From assembly GCA_009694285.1 (NCBI GenBank), contig SHVK01000007.1, positions 1 to 64,000 of the forward strand: a stretch of 64,000 nt of DNA, written 5' to 3'. This DNA is from Candidatus Nanopelagicaceae bacterium (GTDB lineage: Bacteria; Actinomycetota; Actinomycetes; Nanopelagicales; Nanopelagicaceae). The position numbers were made by a program, and so were the translations under genes. Below the pieces are notes generated by a model that was given only the letters and a program-made list of their open reading frames with translations, was not told the DNA's origin and ran no database searches. Positions 123 to 29,826 of this stretch are shown piece after piece (the first letter of the stretch is position 1; the number at the start of each line of letters is the position of its first letter).

Positions 123-249
123 CCGGCTTATAGGGCGACTCTTCTTATTAATTGCTACTGCGCGTAATCAAGTATTAATGCAATAATTCGAAAACAATAG
201 TTTGGTAGTAATTGGGACTTGGTTAATTTCCAAGTCCCTTTTTCTTTTG
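123..249 (+). repeat. Island repeat element, full copy 1
   Basis: This is one of three full copies (others at 2799 and 5865). Blocks shared by all copies, in order, are CCGGCTTATAGGGCGACTCT, ACTGCGCGTAATCAA, an AT-rich stretch ending in ATTC, and TTTGGTAGTAATT, followed by a hairpin built on GGACTTGG. Total length and spacing are nearly constant, so it is a unit rather than scattered similarity. It precedes the first tRNA-like sequence and the glycosidase gene. It might be an integration site, a multicopy small RNA gene ending in the hairpin, or both. Confidence 0.85.
214..246 (+). terminator. Intrinsic terminator in repeat copy 1
   Basis: GGGACTTGG (214-222) pairs perfectly with CCAAGTCCC (230-238) around a 7-nt loop and is followed by TTTTTCTTTT. 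This is the canonical form of a rho-independent terminator for plus-strand transcripts. The same hairpin closes every full copy of the island repeat. Confidence 0.8.
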
Positions 250-290
250 ATCCAATTCACAAATTATGTGTCATACTTTCACCACGATGG

Positions 291-338
291 ATTGGTAGTA
301 ACTGGGACTTGGTTAATCACCAAGTCCCTTTTGCTTTT
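291..338 (+). repeat. Partial island repeat: tail half with second terminator
   Basis: ATTGGTAGTAACT followed by the GGGACTTGG / CCAAGTCCC hairpin (304-312 with 320-328) and TTTTGCTTTT repeats only the 3' third of the island element. It lies just downstream of full copy 1 and produces two terminators in tandem. The head (CCGGCTTATAGG) is missing. It is most simply a truncated duplicate left by recombination between copies. Confidence 0.75.
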
Positions 339-417
339 CCACAATTCTTTTTCATTCACAAGATTTTTTGCTGACTATTTTTGCTTGCGCGTTAATCTGT
401 AACTTCGCTCTCGTGAT

Positions 418-492
418 GGGGGCGTGTTGTAATTGGCAGCCTGTTGGTTTACCAATCCATCGGAGCGGATTCGAACCCCGTCGCCTCCACCA
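418..492 (+). tRNA. Degenerate tRNA-like sequence with encoded CCA
   Basis: A 7-bp acceptor stem is visible (GGGGGCG at 418 with CGCCTCC at 482, one G-U), then discriminator A and an encoded CCA. The T-arm has the loop TTCGAAC and four of five pairs. The D-region TGTAATTGGCAGC is tRNA-like. The anticodon arm does not fold normally: in standard register around TTTACCA only one pair forms, while TTGG/CCAA forms a tight stem with a 4-nt loop. It is probably a tRNA remnant or a non-canonical tRNA. The tRNA-Asn at 48801 in this window has no encoded CCA, which hints at a foreign origin. Confidence 0.4.
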
Positions 493-555
493 CAGTCTTA
501 GCAAATACAATTCGATCTATTGGTAGCGATCAAATGAATTAGATTTGCTTTGCAG

Positions 556-590
556 GAAAGAGCCTCGAGAAATCGGGGCTCTTTCGCTTA
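556..590 (+). terminator. GAAA-tetraloop hairpin terminator
   Basis: GAAAGAGCCTCGA (556-568) pairs over 13 bp, with one G-U, with TCGGGGCTCTTTC (573-585) across a GAAA tetraloop. A modest T-rich tail follows. The same hairpin, with the same preceding bases TTGC..GCAG, recurs at 3260-3289 behind the second tRNA-like sequence. It likely ends the tRNA-like transcript. Confidence 0.7.
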
Positions 591-616
591 CTTAGGCACG
601 GTGATAAGTTCGCTCT

Positions 617-2758
617 ATGAAATTCACTCATTGCTCCTTTGTTATGCGCGAGGGTGTAAATGCTAAATATGCACTCCATCCTCACCGAATCCAATCAGAG
701 AATAATTCTGTAAAAGTGCTTGCGGCAACCAAGACAATCAATCACCGTGGAGATGTACTCAATGCCGCGACTCTGACAATGTTTATGGATTCACCTCTTG
801 CCGATGTAATCAGAATCAAAGTCGTTCACCATGCCGGTGGAGAAGCACCGATGCGCTTCGCTCTAGATGAAAGCGCCCCAAAGACCACTTTTGTTGAGGA
901 CCAGAAGAGCGCGCAATTTAGTGCAGGAGCCCTCACTGCCAAGTTGCATAAAGGTAAGAAGTGGAACTTAGAATTTCTAGCAAATAACAAAGTTGTTGCG
1001 ACGCAAGGCGAAAAAAGTTTTGCAAGCATTGATAACGCCGATGGCAAGCACTACATCAGTGTTCAAATGGGCTTAGGTGTTGGCGAAAGCGTCTATGGTT
1101 TAGGTGAGCGCTTCACATCCTTTATCAAAAATGGTCAAAGCGTAGATATTCACAACGAAGATGGCGGAACATCGAGTGAGCAAGCTTATAAAAATATTCC
1201 TTTCTATATAACCAATGCTGGCTATGGTGTCTTTATCAATCAAGCAGGTCGAGTCTCCATGGAGATCGCTAGTGAGGCAGTTGAGCGAGTTCAGTTCTCT
1301 ATCGAAGGCGAAGAGCTTGAATATTTAGTTATTTACGGCCCAACGCCAAAAGCAATACTCAAGAAATACACGGCGCTGACAGGGCGTGCGCCAGTTGTGC
1401 CACATTGGTCATTTGGTTTGTGGCTCTCAACATCATTTGTTACAGATTATGACGAAGCAACAGTGACATCATTTATCGAAGAGATGAAGAATCGGGACAT
1501 TCCACTGAGTGTTTTCCACTTTGATTGCTTCTGGATGCGAGAGTTTGAATGGAGTAATTTCCAATGGGATCCACGTGTATTTCCAGATCCAAAAGGAATG
1601 CTCACTCGCTTGAAGAGCCAAGGTCTACATATTTCACTGTGGATCAATAGTTATATTGCACAAGAATCTCCACTTTTTGCTGAGGGCAAAAAAAATGGTT
1701 ATTTACTCAAGAGAGCCGATGGGTCTGTCTGGCAATATGATTTATGGCAGGCAGGTTTAGCAGTTGTAGATTTTACAAATCCTGCTGCTTGCGATTGGTA
1801 TAAATCAAAATTACGCGCACTCCTTGATATGGGAGTCGATACTTTCAAAACTGATTTCGGCGAAAGAACTCCACCTGATGTCGTCTACTTTGATGACTCA
1901 CACCCTGGTGATATGCATAACTATTACACGCTTCTCTATAATCAAACTGTTTTTGAACTTTTACAGGAGCACAATCCAAAAGATGCAGTCGTCTTCGCGC
2001 GCAGCGCAACAGTGGGAGGCCAGAAATATCCAGTTCACTGGGGTGGAGATAACTCTGCTTCATTTGAATCAATGGCAGAGACTTTGCGCGGTGGTTTGAG
2101 TTTGGGATTGAGTGGATTTGGATATTGGAGCCATGACATTGGTGGCTTTGAGGGAACCCCAGATCCTGCAGTGTTCAAACGTTGGCTGCCATTTGGTCTC
2201 TTGAGTTCGCATTCACGCCTGCATGGAAATGAATCAGTGCGAGTGCCGTGGATATTTGATGAAGAGGCAGTTGATGTAACACGCAAATTTACAAAGCTCA
2301 AAGCATCTTTGATGCCTTATCTATATAGCGTTGCACACGAAGCCCGCGATCTTGGTCTGCCTATGGCTCGCGCAATGCTTATTGAATTTCCAGAAGATCG
2401 CACATGCCATTTCCTTGATCTGCAGTACATGTTTGGCTCATCCATACTAGTTGCACCAGTATTTAGCGTCAGCGGTGAAGTTGAGTTTTACTTACCTGCT
2501 GGAATCTGGACAAACTTCTTTACAGGCGCACGGATTGTTGGCCCACAATGGGTAAAAGAAAAGCACGGCTTTGATTCGCTGCCGCTCTATGTTCGCGAAA
2601 AATCAGTACTCGTACTTGGTCGCGATGACACCTTCGATTACGACTATCAGAGCGCTACAGATATTCGTGGATACGCCCTTGAAAAAGGTGAGAGCGCATC
2701 AATAATTGTTTACAGCCACCTAAACGATAAAGGTAAGACGGTAACTGTTACTGGTTAG
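617..2758 (+). CDS. yicI: Alpha-xylosidase, GH31 family (YicI-like)
   Basis: Intracellular glycoside hydrolase, 713 aa, with no signal peptide. It is predicted to release alpha-xylose from the non-reducing end of xyloglucan-type oligosaccharides, and could have broader alpha-glucosidase activity. The catalytic nucleophile sits in FKTDFGER (Asp413) and the acid/base in HWGGDN (Asp478). GLSGFGYWSHDIGGFEG and the downstream SSHSRLHG segment closely follow E. coli YicI. The start has no strong ribosome site. It is the only gene between two island repeat copies, with terminators on both sides, so it looks like a single-gene cassette. The family call is very secure; the exact substrate is inferred. 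Confidence 0.9.
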   Translation: MKFTHCSFVMREGVNAKYALHPHRIQSENNSVKVLAATKTINHRGDVLNAATLTMFMDSPLADVIRIKVVHHAGGEAPMRFALDESAPKTTFVEDQKSAQFSAGALTAKLHKGKKWNLEFLANNKVVATQGEKSFASIDNADGKHYISVQMGLGVGESVYGLGERFTSFIKNGQSVDIHNEDGGTSSEQAYKNIPFYITNAGYGVFINQAGRVSMEIASEAVERVQFSIEGEELEYLVIYGPTPKAILKKYTALTGRAPVVPHWSFGLWLSTSFVTDYDEATVTSFIEEMKNRDIPLSVFHFDCFWMREFEWSNFQWDPRVFPDPKGMLTRLKSQGLHISLWINSYIAQESPLFAEGKKNGYLLKRADGSVWQYDLWQAGLAVVDFTNPAACDWYKSKLRALLDMGVDTFKTDFGERTPPDVVYFDDSHPGDMHNYYTLLYNQTVFELLQEHNPKDAVVFARSATVGGQKYPVHWGGDNSASFESMAETLRGGLSLGLSGFGYWSHDIGGFEGTPDPAVFKRWLPFGLLSSHSRLHGNESVRVPWIFDEEAVDVTRKFTKLKASLMPYLYSVAHEARDLGLPMARAMLIEFPEDRTCHFLDLQYMFGSSILVAPVFSVSGEVEFYLPAGIWTNFFTGARIVGPQWVKEKHGFDSLPLYVREKSVLVLGRDDTFDYDYQSATDIRGYALEKGESASIIVYSHLNDKGKTVTVTG

Positions 2759-2798
2759 TTAGTTTTGAACGTAACTGAAACTGTTCAGATTCTAAGCC

Positions 2799-2926
2799 CC
2801 GGCTTATAGGGCGACTCTTCTTTATTATTTTTACTGCGCGTAATCAATCAATTATGTAATGATTCAGCAACAACGGTTTGGTAGTAATTGGGACTTGGTT
2901 AATAGCCAGGTCCCTTTTGCTTTTTG
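2799..2926 (+). repeat. Island repeat element, full copy 2
   Basis: It has the same order of conserved blocks as the copy at 123: the CCGGCTTATAGGGCGACTCT head, ACTGCGCGTAATCAA, an AT-rich middle and TTTGGTAGTAATT before the hairpin. It starts about 40 bp after the glycosidase stop. The middle parts between the blocks have diverged from copies 1 and 3 while block spacing is preserved. Confidence 0.85.
2890..2926 (+). terminator. Intrinsic terminator in repeat copy 2
   Basis: GGGACTTGG (2890-2898) pairs with CCAGGTCCC (2906-2914). The A-to-G change relative to copy 1 turns a U-A pair into U-G, so pairing is retained. A TTTTGCTTTTT tail follows. It ends plus-strand transcription after the glycosidase or after a short transcript started in the repeat. 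Confidence 0.8.
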
Positions 2927-3006
2927 TAATGTGATAAATTATGAAATGCAAGGACTTGAGCTGGTAACTCCTTTACAAGAAGTCTTCGCTGGAGCTGGTG
3001 ACATTT

Positions 3007-3045
3007 AGAAGTCCTGAGATTCGTCTTGGGACTTCTTTGTTTTCC
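3007..3045 (+). terminator. UUCG-tetraloop terminator
   Basis: AGAAGTCCTGAGA (3007-3019) pairs over 13 positions, several G-U, with TCTTGGGACTTCT (3024-3036) across a TTCG tetraloop, and a TTTGTTTT tail follows. No protein gene lies between this and the terminator 80 bp upstream, so the stretch 2927-3006 may be a short non-coding transcript. That stretch contains two GAGCTGGT motifs and an AAGGACTT that resembles the hairpin arm. Confidence 0.75.
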
Positions 3046-3122
3046 ACAACATTAAATCTTGCACAATTTACAAATACTTAACCTTTAGCTTGCCACTTAA
3101 CTGGCCATTCTTATCCTGCGAT

Positions 3123-3196
3123 GCTGGTGTGGCGTAATGGTTAGCGTATTAACTCTTACCAAGTTAGAGGTACGGGTTCGATTCCCGTCACCAGTT
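3123..3196 (+). tRNA. Unusual tRNA, anticodon loop CTTACCA (UAC, Val-like)
   Basis: Acceptor GCTGGTG pairs with CACCAGT (3189-3195, one G-U), discriminator T, then CCG rather than CCA. The T-arm is perfect (ACGGG / TTCGATT / CCCGT). The anticodon stem TAACT/AGTTA is perfect around CTTACCA, which places UAC as anticodon with an atypical C at position 37. The D-stem is weak (GCGT/GCGT with two G-U). The acceptor and T-arm recall bacterial tRNA-Gly(UCC), whose loop would be CTTCCAA; an inserted base could have changed it. It may be a functional odd tRNA or a decaying copy. Confidence 0.55.
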
Positions 3197-3259
3197 CCGC
3201 AGACTCGCGATTGGGCAGTGGTTATTGGTCAAACCATATAGCTGACCATTTGCTTGCAG

Positions 3260-3299
3260 GAAAGAGCCTCGAGAAATTGGGGCTCTTTCTCATTTTTTT
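3260..3299 (+). terminator. GAAA-tetraloop terminator, second copy
   Basis: GAAAGAGCCTCGA (3260-3272), GAAA loop, TTGGGGCTCTTTC (3277-3289), then CTCATTTTTTT. It differs from the copy at 556 by one base in the stem (C to T opposite G), which still pairs. It sits about 65 bp behind the tRNA-like gene, the same arrangement as the first copy. Confidence 0.8.
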
Positions 3300-3324
3300 C
3301 CAGCTTATGGGGCGATTCTTCTTT
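3300..3324 (+). repeat. Partial island repeat: head only
   Basis: CCAGCTTATGGGGCGATTCT followed by TCTTT matches the first 25 bp of the island element with three substitutions, but the middle and hairpin are absent. It directly follows the T-run of the terminator at 3260 and precedes the esterase block, so this cassette border keeps only the head of the element. Confidence 0.65.
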
Positions 3325-3413
3325 AAAAGATCAAATTTGGAAACATTTGTGGGCAAAAACGTAGATTCTGACTCAATCTCGGCCTAAACTATTTTCAAAC
3401 TTCAGGAGGAATC

Positions 3414-4358
3414 ATGTCGCAACAACGTAATCGAATAGATCCTGCATCAAGGGAACCGCTCGAAGGGTTGCTTGCAGCAATCCCTGGCGGATTTAATTCC
3501 ATTTCAGATATCGAACAACGGCGAACAGTTGTTGGGCAGTTGTTGGTTGAGCCAGAGCTCGACAAAAACGTGACGATGGAAGAAAGATTGATCCCGGGAC
3601 CTGCCGGAGAACAGAAGATTAGAATTTATCATGCTAAAAAATCAAAAAAACCAGCACCCGCTTTGGTTTACATCCATGGTGGTGGAATGATTCTTGGCAG
3701 CATTGCAGGTGAAGCTGCAATTTCGCAAATGTTTTGTGCACAAACTGGGGCAACCGTGATTTCAGTTGATTATCGAAAGGCTCCAGAATTTCCGTACCCA
3801 TGTGGACCAGATGATTGCTACTCAGCAGCTAAGTGGGTCTTTGATAACGCATCAGAATTAGGAATAGATGTTAAGAACATTGGAATTTATGGTGGTTCAG
3901 CCGGTGGGGGATTGGCTTTAGCCGTTGTGCTCATGGCGCGAGATAGAAAAACTCTGAACTTCAAATATATGTTGCCTATCTATCCAATGATCGATGACCG
4001 TAACGAGACATCATCAACCCATGAAGTCACCGAAATTGGAATTTGGGATCGATCTGCAAACATTGAGGCCTGGAATTGGTACTTAGGCGGCAAGCCTGCT
4101 GATAGTTACGCAGCGCCTGCCCGCGCCACTGATCTCTCGGGATTACCTCCAGCATTCATAGACGTGGGTGAGTTGGATGCCTTCCGCGTTGAGGACGCAG
4201 AATTCGCATTACGTCTTTTGAAAAGTGGAGTCGCCTGCGAATTTCGAATTTATCCAGGTGCGTATCATGGCTCGGAAATTTTTGCCCCAGAAGCTGACTT
4301 ATCTAAGCGCATCGTGGCAGGTCGAGTAGATGCATTAAAGCGCTTTATAGCTCTTTAA
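3414..4358 (+). CDS. Alpha/beta-hydrolase esterase, HSL (family IV) type
   Basis: Cytoplasmic carboxylesterase-like protein, 314 aa. The oxyanion motif HGGG lies at residues 88-91. The nucleophile elbow YGGSAGGG gives Ser162; Asp255 (GELDAF) and His285 (AYHGSE) complete the triad. The N-terminal cap helix region before residue 80 is typical of hormone-sensitive-lipase-like esterases, which act on short-chain acyl esters. An AGGAGGA ribosome site precedes the ATG at good spacing. It is the first gene of the second island block. The natural substrate cannot be told. Confidence 0.85.
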   Translation: MSQQRNRIDPASREPLEGLLAAIPGGFNSISDIEQRRTVVGQLLVEPELDKNVTMEERLIPGPAGEQKIRIYHAKKSKKPAPALVYIHGGGMILGSIAGEAAISQMFCAQTGATVISVDYRKAPEFPYPCGPDDCYSAAKWVFDNASELGIDVKNIGIYGGSAGGGLALAVVLMARDRKTLNFKYMLPIYPMIDDRNETSSTHEVTEIGIWDRSANIEAWNWYLGGKPADSYAAPARATDLSGLPPAFIDVGELDAFRVEDAEFALRLLKSGVACEFRIYPGAYHGSEIFAPEADLSKRIVAGRVDALKRFIAL

Positions 4359-4408
4359 AAATCAACCCTACTTGGATACAGCTCTTTTAAGTTTGCATGT
4401 GACCCAAG

Positions 4409-4442
4409 TTGCCTAAAAGGTAGCAACTGGTAAAATTTTTAC
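4409..4442 (+). promoter_or_regulatory. Predicted promoter giving a leaderless mRNA
   Basis: TTGCCT (4409-4414), a 16-bp spacer and TAAAAT (4431-4436) resemble a housekeeping-sigma promoter. The expected start, seven bases after the -10 box, is the A of the ATG at 4443. No ribosome site is present. Leaderless transcripts are common in actinobacteria. An AGTTGC...GCAACT inverted repeat lies across the spacer and might bind a regulator. Confidence 0.55.
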
Positions 4443-5000
4443 ATGGGTATATTAACCAAGAGCAATAAGTTATTGGCGCTGCTAGTCGTTATTTTTATTC
4501 CCTTTCTCAGTGAGCCTGCAACAGCTAGTTCGCATGCCAGTAGCCTAAAGAATTTGGACATGAATGAAATCATGTTTGCCCAAGGCATGATTCCTCATCA
4601 CCAACAAGCTATAGACATGTCTAACATGGCTTTAAAAAATGGCGCTAGTGCCGAAGTGAAGAAGTTGGCTAAGGGAATTATTTCTGCTCAGAAAAAAGAG
4701 ATCAGTCAGTTGAAGTATTGGCTTAAAGCGACTAACTCTTCAATGACTATGGATCATGACATGGGCATGAATGGCATGCTTTCTATGAATGATCTGAATG
4801 CTCTGAAAAAACTCAGGGGCAGTAAATTTGATGCTGCTTTTCTTAAGGGGATGATTGCCCATCATGAGGGAGCGCTAGAGATGGTTAGCATGATTGATGA
4901 CACAAAAAACAGTGAAGCAAAGAAGATTGCAATTGATATCCGAAAAGGGCAATCAGCCGAAATCACTCGGATGAAGAAATTATTGGCTAACAATACATAA
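4443..5000 (+). CDS. Secreted DUF305 protein
   Basis: 185 aa. Residues 1-29 form a signal peptide (hydrophobic LLALLVVIFIPFL, then an Ala-Ser-rich cleavage region). Two copies of the DUF305 signature follow: MIPHHQQAIDMSNMAL near residue 55 and MIAHHEGALEMVSM near residue 140, each with a paired His. DUF305 domains are ferritin-like helical bundles often encoded with copper and other metal-handling genes. A Met/His-rich linker (MTMDHDMGMNGMLSM) between them strengthens a metal-binding guess. The function is not established. It is probably co-transcribed with the propeller gene 30 bp downstream. Confidence 0.85.
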   Translation: MGILTKSNKLLALLVVIFIPFLSEPATASSHASSLKNLDMNEIMFAQGMIPHHQQAIDMSNMALKNGASAEVKKLAKGIISAQKKEISQLKYWLKATNSSMTMDHDMGMNGMLSMNDLNALKKLRGSKFDAAFLKGMIAHHEGALEMVSMIDDTKNSEAKKIAIDIRKGQSAEITRMKKLLANNT

Positions 5001-5030
5001 GGTCAGAGGATTGATAGTAGGAAGCAGCGA

Positions 5031-5864
5031 ATGTGGGAAAAAATGAAGAAGTTAGATAAAAAGAGTTTGAGAATTAGATTTTTTGTTGTTGTAATTGTTA
5101 CGCTCGTGGGGTTCACTAATCATGCAAGTGCGGAAACTCTAGATTCAGTCTCACACATACACCATGTAAAAGTCGTGGAAAACAAAGTGCTTGTTTTAAC
5201 TCATGAAGGTCTCTTTGAGTTAGTCAGCAAGAATGAGATGAAGTTAATTGGAAAAGATAAGATTGATGTGATGGGATTTACAACCTTAGGTAAGACATGG
5301 GTTGCAAGTGGACACCCTTCCCAAGGTTCTAAAATGCCAAACCCAATTGGCCTTGTTCAATCTAGTGATGGTGGATCAAATTGGAATGCTGTCTCTTTGG
5401 TCGGAGAAGTAGATTTTCACTTTTTAGAAGGTGCTGGAAGTGATCTATACGGTGCCGATTCACAGAGTGGAAATTTACTGCATTCAGCAGATTCCGGAAA
5501 GACATGGATCTCATTAGGAACCAACACCTTTACAGATATCGCAGTTTCACCTGAGATGTCAGGAATGGCTATTGCAATTAAGGATTCTGAATTGTTGCTA
5601 ACTGAAAACGCCTTCAAGTCAACCTTTAAAATTAAGAGCAATCTCAAAATTACTCAGATTGAATGGCGCAAATCAGGTCTTTACGCTTTGAGCGGTAGTG
5701 CGCTCTACAAGTCAATAAATTTTGGTAAAAGTTGGACAAAGCTCACTTCATTTAAAGGCGCATCAGGGATTCTTAGTGCTAGTGATCGGTTGATGTTGGT
5801 AACTGTGGGCGCAGATATCTATACATCATCAAATGCTGGCAAAAAATTCAAAGTACTTTCTTAA
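5031..5864 (+). CDS. Secreted VPS10/BNR-type beta-propeller protein
   Basis: Up to 277 aa; the true start may be the ATG at 5043 (MKKLDKK). A signal peptide with a FFVVVIVTLVGF core ends near HASA. The rest is built of repeats with Asp-box-like turns (SSDGGSNW, SADSGKTWISL, SINFGKSWTKL, SSNAGKKF), as in sortilin/BNR propellers. It resembles the bacterial F510_1955-type exported proteins often found beside DUF305 proteins; their biochemical role is unproven. HIHHVKV near the mature N terminus matches that family's opening. The gene ends directly at the next island repeat, with no spacer after the stop codon. Confidence 0.75.
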   Translation: MWEKMKKLDKKSLRIRFFVVVIVTLVGFTNHASAETLDSVSHIHHVKVVENKVLVLTHEGLFELVSKNEMKLIGKDKIDVMGFTTLGKTWVASGHPSQGSKMPNPIGLVQSSDGGSNWNAVSLVGEVDFHFLEGAGSDLYGADSQSGNLLHSADSGKTWISLGTNTFTDIAVSPEMSGMAIAIKDSELLLTENAFKSTFKIKSNLKITQIEWRKSGLYALSGSALYKSINFGKSWTKLTSFKGASGILSASDRLMLVTVGADIYTSSNAGKKFKVLS

Positions 5865-5986
5865 CCGGCTTATAGGGCGACTCTTCTTTTTAATCTCCAC
5901 TGCGCGTAATCAAGTAATTATGTAATAATTCGGGAACGCTTGTTTGGTAGTAATTAGGACTTGGATAATTCCAAGTCCTTTTTGCT
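5865..5986 (+). repeat. Island repeat element, full copy 3
   Basis: It starts at the base after the propeller stop codon with CCGGCTTATAGGGCGACTCT and keeps all blocks of the copies at 123 and 2799. It closes the second cargo block; beyond it lies the convergent, ordinary chromosomal gene yaaA. This suggests it marks the right edge of the island. Confidence 0.85.
5956..5983 (+). terminator. Intrinsic terminator in repeat copy 3
   Basis: AGGACTTGG (5956-5964) pairs with CCAAGTCCT (5971-5979), loop ATAATT, then TTTTT. The outermost G-C pair of copy 1 is A-T here: both arms changed, so this is a compensatory pair change supporting selection on the hairpin. Confidence 0.8.
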
Positions 5987-6026: not shown

Positions 6027-6677
6027 TTAGGTAATCACATCAATAAACCAACTCTTCTTGCCTTCAGCTTCGGTCAAACGACAAGTGAATTCTTTGCTAA
6101 GTAATTTATGAAGTTCTTCTGGAGTTCGTGAATTTTTAGCTTGAGAAACTAAGTATCGAGTTACCTCACCTCGAGTTAGTTTTGACATATGGGTGATCAC
6201 TTTCAATTGACCGGCAACTTTCTTGAATACACGTATGCCGACAGTGTTAAGTGGATTAGGCGTCCAGACGGTTGAGTAAGTAGATGACCTGCAATCAATT
6301 ATTAATTCATTTTTGAATCCAGCGAGAGCATTAGAAAGTGGATCTTTCCAAACAGAGGGATCAATTTTGAATTTGTAATAAGGAATTACGTCAGTTAAAC
6401 GAAGCGCACCAAAGGCTGCTGAAATAATAATAATTGAATTGTTCGCCCGTGTTTGAGCAGCGGCTGACAAAGATGTGTAATCAAGTGCTTGGTATAAAAC
6501 TCCTTCGTAAACATTCGAAGCAAAATTGCAATGCGATAGATCTATTTCTTTATGCTTTTTTAACACAGCCGTTCGAGTTGCAGTGAGATCTGCATTAAAT
6601 GAAAGTGCATTCAATTTAAGGGCAATTTTCTGCTTAGGCTCGTTCTTTTTCTCACTTGGTGGAAGAAGAATCTTCAT
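6027..6677 (-). CDS. yaaA: YaaA family peroxide-stress protein
   Basis: 216 aa from the Met in MKILLPPSEKK; an upstream in-frame start would add 15 residues with no family match, so this start is preferred. The MKILLPPSEKK opening, SNVYEGVLYQALDY, and the IDCRSSTYSTVW block are the hallmarks of the YaaA (UPF0246/DUF328) family. In E. coli the protein lowers intracellular iron and DNA damage during hydrogen-peroxide stress. The divergent neighbour is katG, which fits a shared peroxide role. Confidence 0.85.
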   Translation of the reverse strand: MKILLPPSEKKNEPKQKIALKLNALSFNADLTATRTAVLKKHKEIDLSHCNFASNVYEGVLYQALDYTSLSAAAQTRANNSIIIISAAFGALRLTDVIPYYKFKIDPSVWKDPLSNALAGFKNELIIDCRSSTYSTVWTPNPLNTVGIRVFKKVAGQLKVITHMSKLTRGEVTRYLVSQAKNSRTPEELHKLLSKEFTCRLTEAEGKKSWFIDVIT

Positions 6678-6856
6678 TACAGATTGCTCGCAGACATTCA
6701 GCAAGAGTAGTGGAGCAAGCAAGTTGGAGTTAGATTACTTTTGATCTGGCGGGAAAAGTGCTCAAGAAATCTCATTTTTCCAGGTTTAGCAGGTCCCTAC
6801 AAAGGGGTTTTCATTGATTTTTCCAATGGATAATTTCGGCTTTACACCTAGAATGA

Positions 6857-9046
<2,190 letters not shown>

Positions 9047-29526: not shown

Positions 29527-29826
29527 TTATGCTGCTGGTGCTGCCTTCGCTGCTTTTTTACGGCGACGACGAGGCTTTGCTGCACCGGCTTTCTTAGCGG
29601 CTTTCTTACGACGCTTTGGAGCGGCTTTCTTAGCGGCTTTCTTACGACGCTTTGGAGCGGCTTTCTTAGCGGCTTTCTTACGACGCTTTGGAGCTGCTTT
29701 CTTAGCAGCTTTCTTACGACGCTTTGGAGCTGCTTTCTTAGCAGCTTTCTTACGACGCTTTGGAGCTGCTTTCTTAGCAGCTTTCTTGGTCGTGCGCTTC
29801 TTTGATGTTTTCTTGGCTGCAGCCAC
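29527..29826 (-). CDS. Histone H1-like Lys/Ala-rich DNA-binding protein
   Basis: 99 aa from GTG with AGGAGA upstream. It is almost wholly Lys, Arg, Ala and Pro. Five exact or near-exact 12-residue units AAPKRRKKAAKK make the core, with a KKTSKKRTTKK head and an AAKPRRRRKKAAKAAPAA tail. No HU domain is present, so this is a free-standing analogue of the C-terminal tails of actinobacterial HupB or of eukaryotic H1. It should bind DNA non-specifically and compact it. A strong terminator follows. Function is inferred from composition. Confidence 0.8.
   Translation of the reverse strand: MAAAKKTSKKRTTKKAAKKAAPKRRKKAAKKAAPKRRKKAAKKAAPKRRKKAAKKAAPKRRKKAAKKAAPKRRKKAAKKAGAAKPRRRRKKAAKAAPAA
29605..29784 (-). 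repeat. Five tandem 36-bp coding repeats
   Basis: Units start at 29605, 29641, 29677, 29713 and 29749, each beginning CTTACGACGCTTTGGAGC. They differ only at silent positions, GCGG versus GCTG/GCAG, which split them into two subgroups. Each unit encodes 12 residues, so copy-number change keeps the frame. Confidence 0.9.

Follow-up and report, generated by a model that had tools for sequence, protein, structure and literature searches.

We describe here an array of gene cassettes stacked behind rnpB, the gene for RNase P RNA, inside which the window begins, the window being the whole 64,000-nucleotide (64-kb) stretch of DNA that was analyzed from a Nanopelagicaceae (acI) genome. The short repeat at the borders of the cassettes, here referred to as the head, is the 3' end of rnpB. 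In our estimate the probability is roughly 0.86 that the heads are attachment (att) sites resulting from site-specific integration into the rnpB 3' end and that the cassettes were stacked behind this gene by a tyrosine integrase. Contig C5 starts with the window, so that the array is cut by the contig edge.

An earlier note on this DNA had described a structured element of ~125 bp that borders successive blocks of cargo. Its three full copies are present at 123-248, 2799-2924, and 5865-5986; copy 2 is 84% identical to copy 1, and copy 3 is 86% identical to it over positions 1-123. The tail-only copy also exists, but it spans 284-338 and does not start at 291 as had been stated, and the head-only copy reported at 3300 was found at 3300-3323 as a degenerate copy with 3 mismatches. 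In agreement with the statement that the other 58 kb lack copies, no further head with up to 3 mismatches was detected elsewhere in the 64-kb window (0 in 100 shuffles), and no other significant copy of the element was found in the whole 1.28-Mb assembly. As had also been observed, copy 3 starts right after the stop codon of the open reading frame at 5031-5864, and the att copy at 2799 separates the alpha-xylosidase gene (617-2758) from the block of esterase, DUF305, and propeller genes (3414-5864). The features of the region are as follows.

122-146, + strand: att copy 1, TCCGGCTTATAGGGCGACTCTTCTT, the same sequence as at the rnpB 3' end in relatives
214-245, + strand: terminator hairpin GGGACTTGG-TTAATTT-CCAAGTCCC-TTTTT, 3' of att copy 1, seen in the sequence and recurring in tRNA cassettes
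284-338, + strand: second copy of the cassette terminator (the tail-only copy)
418-492, + strand: tRNA-like gene of a tRNA cassette (Rfam tRNA, 35 bits; elsewhere this sequence family is tRNA-Gly(ACC) by ARAGORN)
550-585, + strand: terminator-like hairpin at the end of the tRNA block, with 97% identity to 3254-3289
617-2758, + strand: cargo, glycoside hydrolase family 31 (GH31) of the alpha-xylosidase/alpha-glucosidase type, with no match in four same-genus relatives
2799-2822, + strand: att copy 2
3123-3198, + strand: tRNA-Val(TAC) in the cassette at 2799-3300
3254-3289, + strand: terminator-like hairpin closing the tRNA-Val cassette
3300-3323, + strand: degenerate att copy, with 3 mismatches, at the end of the tRNA-Val cassette
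3414-4358, + strand: cargo, alpha/beta hydrolase (Abhydrolase_3 esterase)
4443-5000, + strand: cargo, DUF305 protein, with 46-74% homologues in rnpB arrays of other genomes
5031-5864, + strand: cargo, BNR/sortilin-like propeller protein, with 60-79% homologues in other rnpB arrays
5865-5888, + strand: att copy 3, directly 3' of the stop codon of the propeller gene
6027-6722, - strand: right flank, YaaA peroxide-stress protein, of uncertain island membership
6890-9046, + strand: right flank, catalase-peroxidase (KatG), found a few kb downstream of rnpB also in G030 and G106

A decayed att copy between the tRNA block and the GH31 gene, at ~586-608, was considered and rejected, since the match there was no better than those in shuffles (215/500). 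Farther along the window, a 36-bp tandem repeat occurs in six overlapping copies (29545-29823); on the minus strand they apparently encode a predicted lysine/alanine-rich stretch, as in the tails of histone-like proteins.

The constant head, TCCGGCTTATAGGGCGACTCTTCTT, corresponds to the last ~25 nt of rnpB in relatives of the window genome. A search of 100 relatives gave head matches in 43 genomes, all belonging to the window's own family. In an Rfam search of 19 genomes, RF00010 matches covering model positions 1-367 had the last base of the head as their own last base (for example, the match at G013:C1:1463296-1463642 with its head at 1463296-1463319), and the same was true of the same-genus relatives G001 and G002. 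These matches identify the head as the rnpB 3' end. In the window's own assembly rnpB was not found, and the rnpB upstream flank of a same-genus relative gave no match in a search run without a positive control, both of which fit a contig broken inside the repeat array.

Multiple-sequence alignment of 180 cassette copies other than rnpB itself revealed a conserved T CCGGCTTATAGGGCGACTCTTCTT (25 nt), with nothing consistent outside it. Of the ~125-bp element that had been taken as the border unit, the first ~25 nt do recur at cassette borders, but the other ~100 nt are the start of a recurrent type of cassette carrying a tRNA gene; likewise, the constant tail is a real hairpin but represents a cassette-borne terminator rather than a part of the repeating unit. 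In these tRNA cassettes, often ~380 bp in length, the att site is followed by a short TTACTGCGAGTAA motif and a terminator, then by the tRNA or tRNA-like gene with a closing terminator, and finally by the next att site. Among 30 tRNA cassette starts collected, ARAGORN recognized 21 tRNA genes, most of them Gly(ACC) and two Val(TAC), including that of the window; the glycine anticodon ACC is unusual in bacteria. Cassettes of this type, ~380 bp and longer, were seen at 418-492 and 3123-3198 of the window and at L013, L210, L255, and other loci. In the tRNA-like copies the anticodon-stem positions 29 and 41 are paired in only 6 of 17 distinct copies, and the acceptor and T stems are intact. Terminator-like hairpins lie within 130 nt of the head in 18 of 73 rnpB-proximal copies, compared to a shuffle mean of 1.2, and in 42 of 187 other copies, compared to a shuffle mean of 3.2; terminators after heads are thus enriched but not universal. 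Their likely role would be to restore the termination of rnpB after an insertion.

Across 85 cassettes, the spacing between copies ranged from 163 to 11,133 bp with a median of 826 bp. Many cassettes consist of one small gene, and the array of G060 includes one SnoaL-like cassette and one cassette for a TipAS-domain protein. The earlier note had proposed to test whether the cargo varies between close strains, and the cargo does differ among relatives: the GH31 gene at 617-2758 had no match at threshold in the four same-genus relatives and is present in 1 (G036) of 32 other family genomes searched, and both this gene and the esterase gene are absent from the other array loci examined.

The distribution of the head was surveyed with a 20-mer, allowing up to 1 mismatch, in 67 genomes of the family, namely, 66 that are at least 95% complete and the window's own. 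Matches were obtained in 60 of the 67 genomes, and a reversed control pattern matched in none. The 17 single-contig genomes with matches contain 47 copies, 46 of which fall into a single cluster per genome, none of these clusters exceeding 12.3 kb, and two or more copies are present in 13 of these 17 genomes. The copies form same-direction arrays behind rnpB, heads on both strands being found at none of the loci examined. Records of the cultured isolates IMCC19121 and IMCC26103 are among the array matches. The single exception to the clustering, at G108:C1:347005 (L258), is an ectopic rnpB 3' end far from rnpB; the HTH gene pair behind it resembles one of the cassettes of the G013 array. A second off-locus head, at G007:C2:558202 (L206), is an exact 20-nt match that overlaps a same-strand open reading frame. 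Whole or partial extra copies of rnpB occur in G018, G007, and G050. At G018:C19 (L190), two complete RNase P RNA genes enclose ~8 kb with transporter and polyol dehydrogenase genes, and similar dehydrogenase genes are located directly upstream of the single rnpB of G041, which suggests that a segment including rnpB itself moved.

As judged from sequence comparison, one cassette has moved between genera, with the similarity ending at the repeat. A cassette of 4,104 bp, which encodes DUF305 and a heavy-metal-associated domain, is located immediately after rnpB in both G021 (genus g2) and G060 (genus g16), with 2 mismatches between the two copies. The rnpB sequence upstream of it differs heavily between the two genomes, and downstream, divergence resumes at the first base past the second repeat. 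G005, a member of the same genus as G021, is without this cassette and has kept the next one, representing the uninserted state, so that filled and empty sites are seen in relatives (G021/G060 versus G005) and one unit is seen in different hosts. The starts of this cassette and of the next one share ~180 bp at 91% identity, and because these repeats flank the cassette, homologous recombination could have helped in this case. In total, 55 cassette pairs across genomes match over at least 70% of their length, 39 of them between genera, and the window's tRNA-Val cassette (2799-3300) matches a cassette in G039, from another genus, with 89% identity over 79%. Each unit has direct repeats at its borders that are identical in sequence to the rnpB 3' end. 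A viral origin was considered and rejected: IMG/VR contained no exact 18-mer att match, and the five 15-mer matches, which were without the rest of the repeat, look like chance.

The earlier note had placed the recombinase outside the window, and we indeed trace it to a tyrosine integrase on small integrative elements of other genomes and not of the window genome. No recombinase gene was found among the array genes of the window. The only two full-length tyrosine recombinases of the window genome are encoded on other contigs and were taken as XerC and XerD, and for this reason an active recombinase cannot be named in this genome. A serine recombinase was rejected as a candidate, since serine resolvases were absent from the 12 genomes searched, including that of the window. 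In G020, a 375-amino-acid tyrosine integrase is encoded 5.6 kb behind rnpB on the same contig. Its relatives, with 44-100% identity, amount to seven matches in six family genomes, two of them in G264, and in every case a head copy lies no more than ~310 bp from the end of the match. On the five contigs that are complete on the left, the element starts at rnpB's own head and is the first behind rnpB; five complete elements with their own integrase at the rnpB att site were found in G020, G267, G153, G212, and G275. A close integrase is present in only 6 of 296 family genomes, and most family genomes carry arrays. In an alignment of five of the integrases, R201, K239, H306, R309, H332, and Y342 are invariant, an R-K-H-R-H-Y set that constitutes the catalytic residues of tyrosine recombinases. 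The array integrase contains a PF00589 domain, consistent with membership in the tyrosine recombinase (phage integrase) family, and the closest solved structures are those of Int (6en0/6emy). Given its association with rnpB-derived repeats, the recombinase is very probably this tyrosine integrase. The G020 element also encodes excisionase-like HTH proteins and a 432-amino-acid candidate replication protein without a Pfam or PHROG match; a defense role for its zinc-ribbon protein was rejected, as PADLOC gave no match. The element of G212 encodes a type III restriction-modification pair and a primase-like protein. Since the window genome is without the array integrase, the cassettes of the window are probably immobile or mobilized by a helper.

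Integrases beside rnpB are also found outside the family. When the class was searched with the G020 integrase, four matches with 33-37% identity were obtained in other families, and rnpB is present in the flank of three of them. Searching within the family of one of these matches returned 36 genomes, and 19 loci were examined, 18 of them new and one being the G501 locus already counted. A complete rnpB lies beside the integrase in 14 of the 19, and one further locus has the repeat only. In G494 and G501, a second copy of the host's own rnpB end is located 17 kb and 10.6 kb away, respectively, just beyond a second integrase, which indicates that elements are stacked there too. According to the coordinates, the layout differs, with the 3' end of the integrase facing rnpB in these genomes and the distal repeat in acI. 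The loci of integrases beside rnpB in other actinobacterial families are L260-L262 and L276-L291.

In light of this, we propose that the integrase catalyzes recombination between the 25-nt site of a circular element and the 3' end of rnpB. The inserted DNA would bring its own copy of these 25 nt, in many cases with a terminator behind it, so that rnpB would stay intact and presumably functional. Repeated insertion behind rnpB would then stack elements, and units that lost or never had an integrase, like all of those in the window, may persist as cassettes, probably moving only with an integrase-bearing neighbor or with an integrase provided in trans. More tentatively, it is conceivable that rnpB is an integration hot spot throughout the class Actinomycetes and that it has turned into an integron-like capture locus in acI, at which integrase-less, often single-gene cassettes are inserted rnpB-proximally by the integrase of a helper element. 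If so, a streamlined genome could gain and lose genes without keeping a recombinase.

That the head is an attachment site, as the earlier note had suggested, agrees with its identity to the rnpB 3' end, with the cargo stacked between copies, and with their clustering at rnpB. The clear terminator hairpin at the end of the full 125-bp form and the enrichment of terminators after heads could also be expected of a terminator- or REP-like repeat family at operon ends with no role in mobility. The earlier note had described what such a family would look like, with copies scattered at operon ends and cargo conserved in relatives; instead, 46 of 47 copies are confined to one rnpB cluster, always in the same direction, the cargo differs between relatives, conservation is limited to the 25 nt identical to the rnpB end, and cassettes between copies move between genera. 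We therefore regard a REP-like family as scarcely credible. Tandem duplication and homologous recombination at rnpB, with capture of foreign DNA and no site-specific recombinase, would account for the extra whole or partial rnpB copies in G018, G007, and G050 and for the longer starts that some cassettes share (~180 bp at 91%). However, such a process would leave rnpB pieces of varied length, whereas 180 copies share a sharp 25-nt unit, and an rnpB-associated integrase family exists, making this explanation quite improbable.

It is also very improbable that the host XerC and XerD proteins mobilize the cassettes with no dedicated integrase being involved, even though most of the array-bearing single-contig genomes searched contain only two full-length tyrosine recombinases, far from rnpB, and no serine resolvase was found in the genomes searched. 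Six family genomes have a dedicated integrase next to rnpB-derived repeats, distant relatives of it are located beside rnpB elsewhere, and, by inspection, the head does not look like a dif site.

The acI actinobacteria belong to the most abundant bacteria of fresh water and have small genomes that still differ between strains. The rnpB array represents a physical site where such strain differences accumulate, and with the 25-nt marker these arrays can be found, the integrase family being named as the candidate enzyme. RNase P RNA is essential and near-universal, and its gene joins the RNA genes used as integration sites. As arrays are present in cultured isolates, excision and capture are directly testable. 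No report of rnpB as an attachment site was found in the open-licence papers searched, in which tRNA and tmRNA targets are reported. The cassette system, called undescribed in the earlier note, has an apparently undescribed target, but islands of this kind are known for tRNA and tmRNA genes; the features that appear novel are the use of rnpB as the target, the integrase family linked to it, and the dense arrays of small cassettes in acI.

Similar to the acI arrays, the ssrA islands of Dehalococcoides are arranged in tandem behind an essential single-copy RNA gene and are bordered by ~20-nt copies of its 3' end; many lack the integration module, and for these, movement by accretion as cis-mobilizable elements has been proposed (PMC3146451). 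In contrast to the acI arrays, they target the tmRNA gene, use the serine recombinases DsiB and DsiA, and carry the catabolic gene rdhA (PMC3146451). Going by the available parts of the respective reports, the additive islands of "Ca. Actinomarinales" (PMC7771536) and fGI-2 of "Ca. Methylopumilus" (PMC10872708) likewise comprise small, strain-variable cassettes in streamlined aquatic bacteria, bordered by ~20-nt copies of a tRNA 3' end, that of tRNA-Lys in fGI-2 (PMC10872708); unlike the acI arrays, they target tRNA genes, and those parts tie no integrase to the repeat (PMC7771536, PMC10872708). Accretion of actinobacterial integrative elements (AICEs) at tRNA sites resembles the acI arrays in its tyrosine integrases, excisionase-like genes, stacking at one site, identical direct repeats, and decayed remnants, but AICEs have TraB-type genes for transfer, and their targets are mostly tRNA genes (PMC9513070, PMC3218068). 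The G020 element has the integration module of an AICE, consisting of the integrase and an excisionase-like protein, but no FtsK/TraB-type conjugative transfer protein was found among the eight of its proteins that were scanned. With integrons, the acI system shares arrays of mostly small cassettes, repeated recombination sites, and integrase-bearing elements at a fixed proximal end. It differs from them in that there is no IntI-type integrase, most array genomes having only the XerC/XerD type and the array integrases matching general integrase families, and in that there are no attC-like conserved inverted-repeat arms, nothing being conserved beyond the 25 nt in 180 copies. Furthermore, unlike the recombination sites of integrons, the repeat in acI forms the end of a housekeeping RNA gene.
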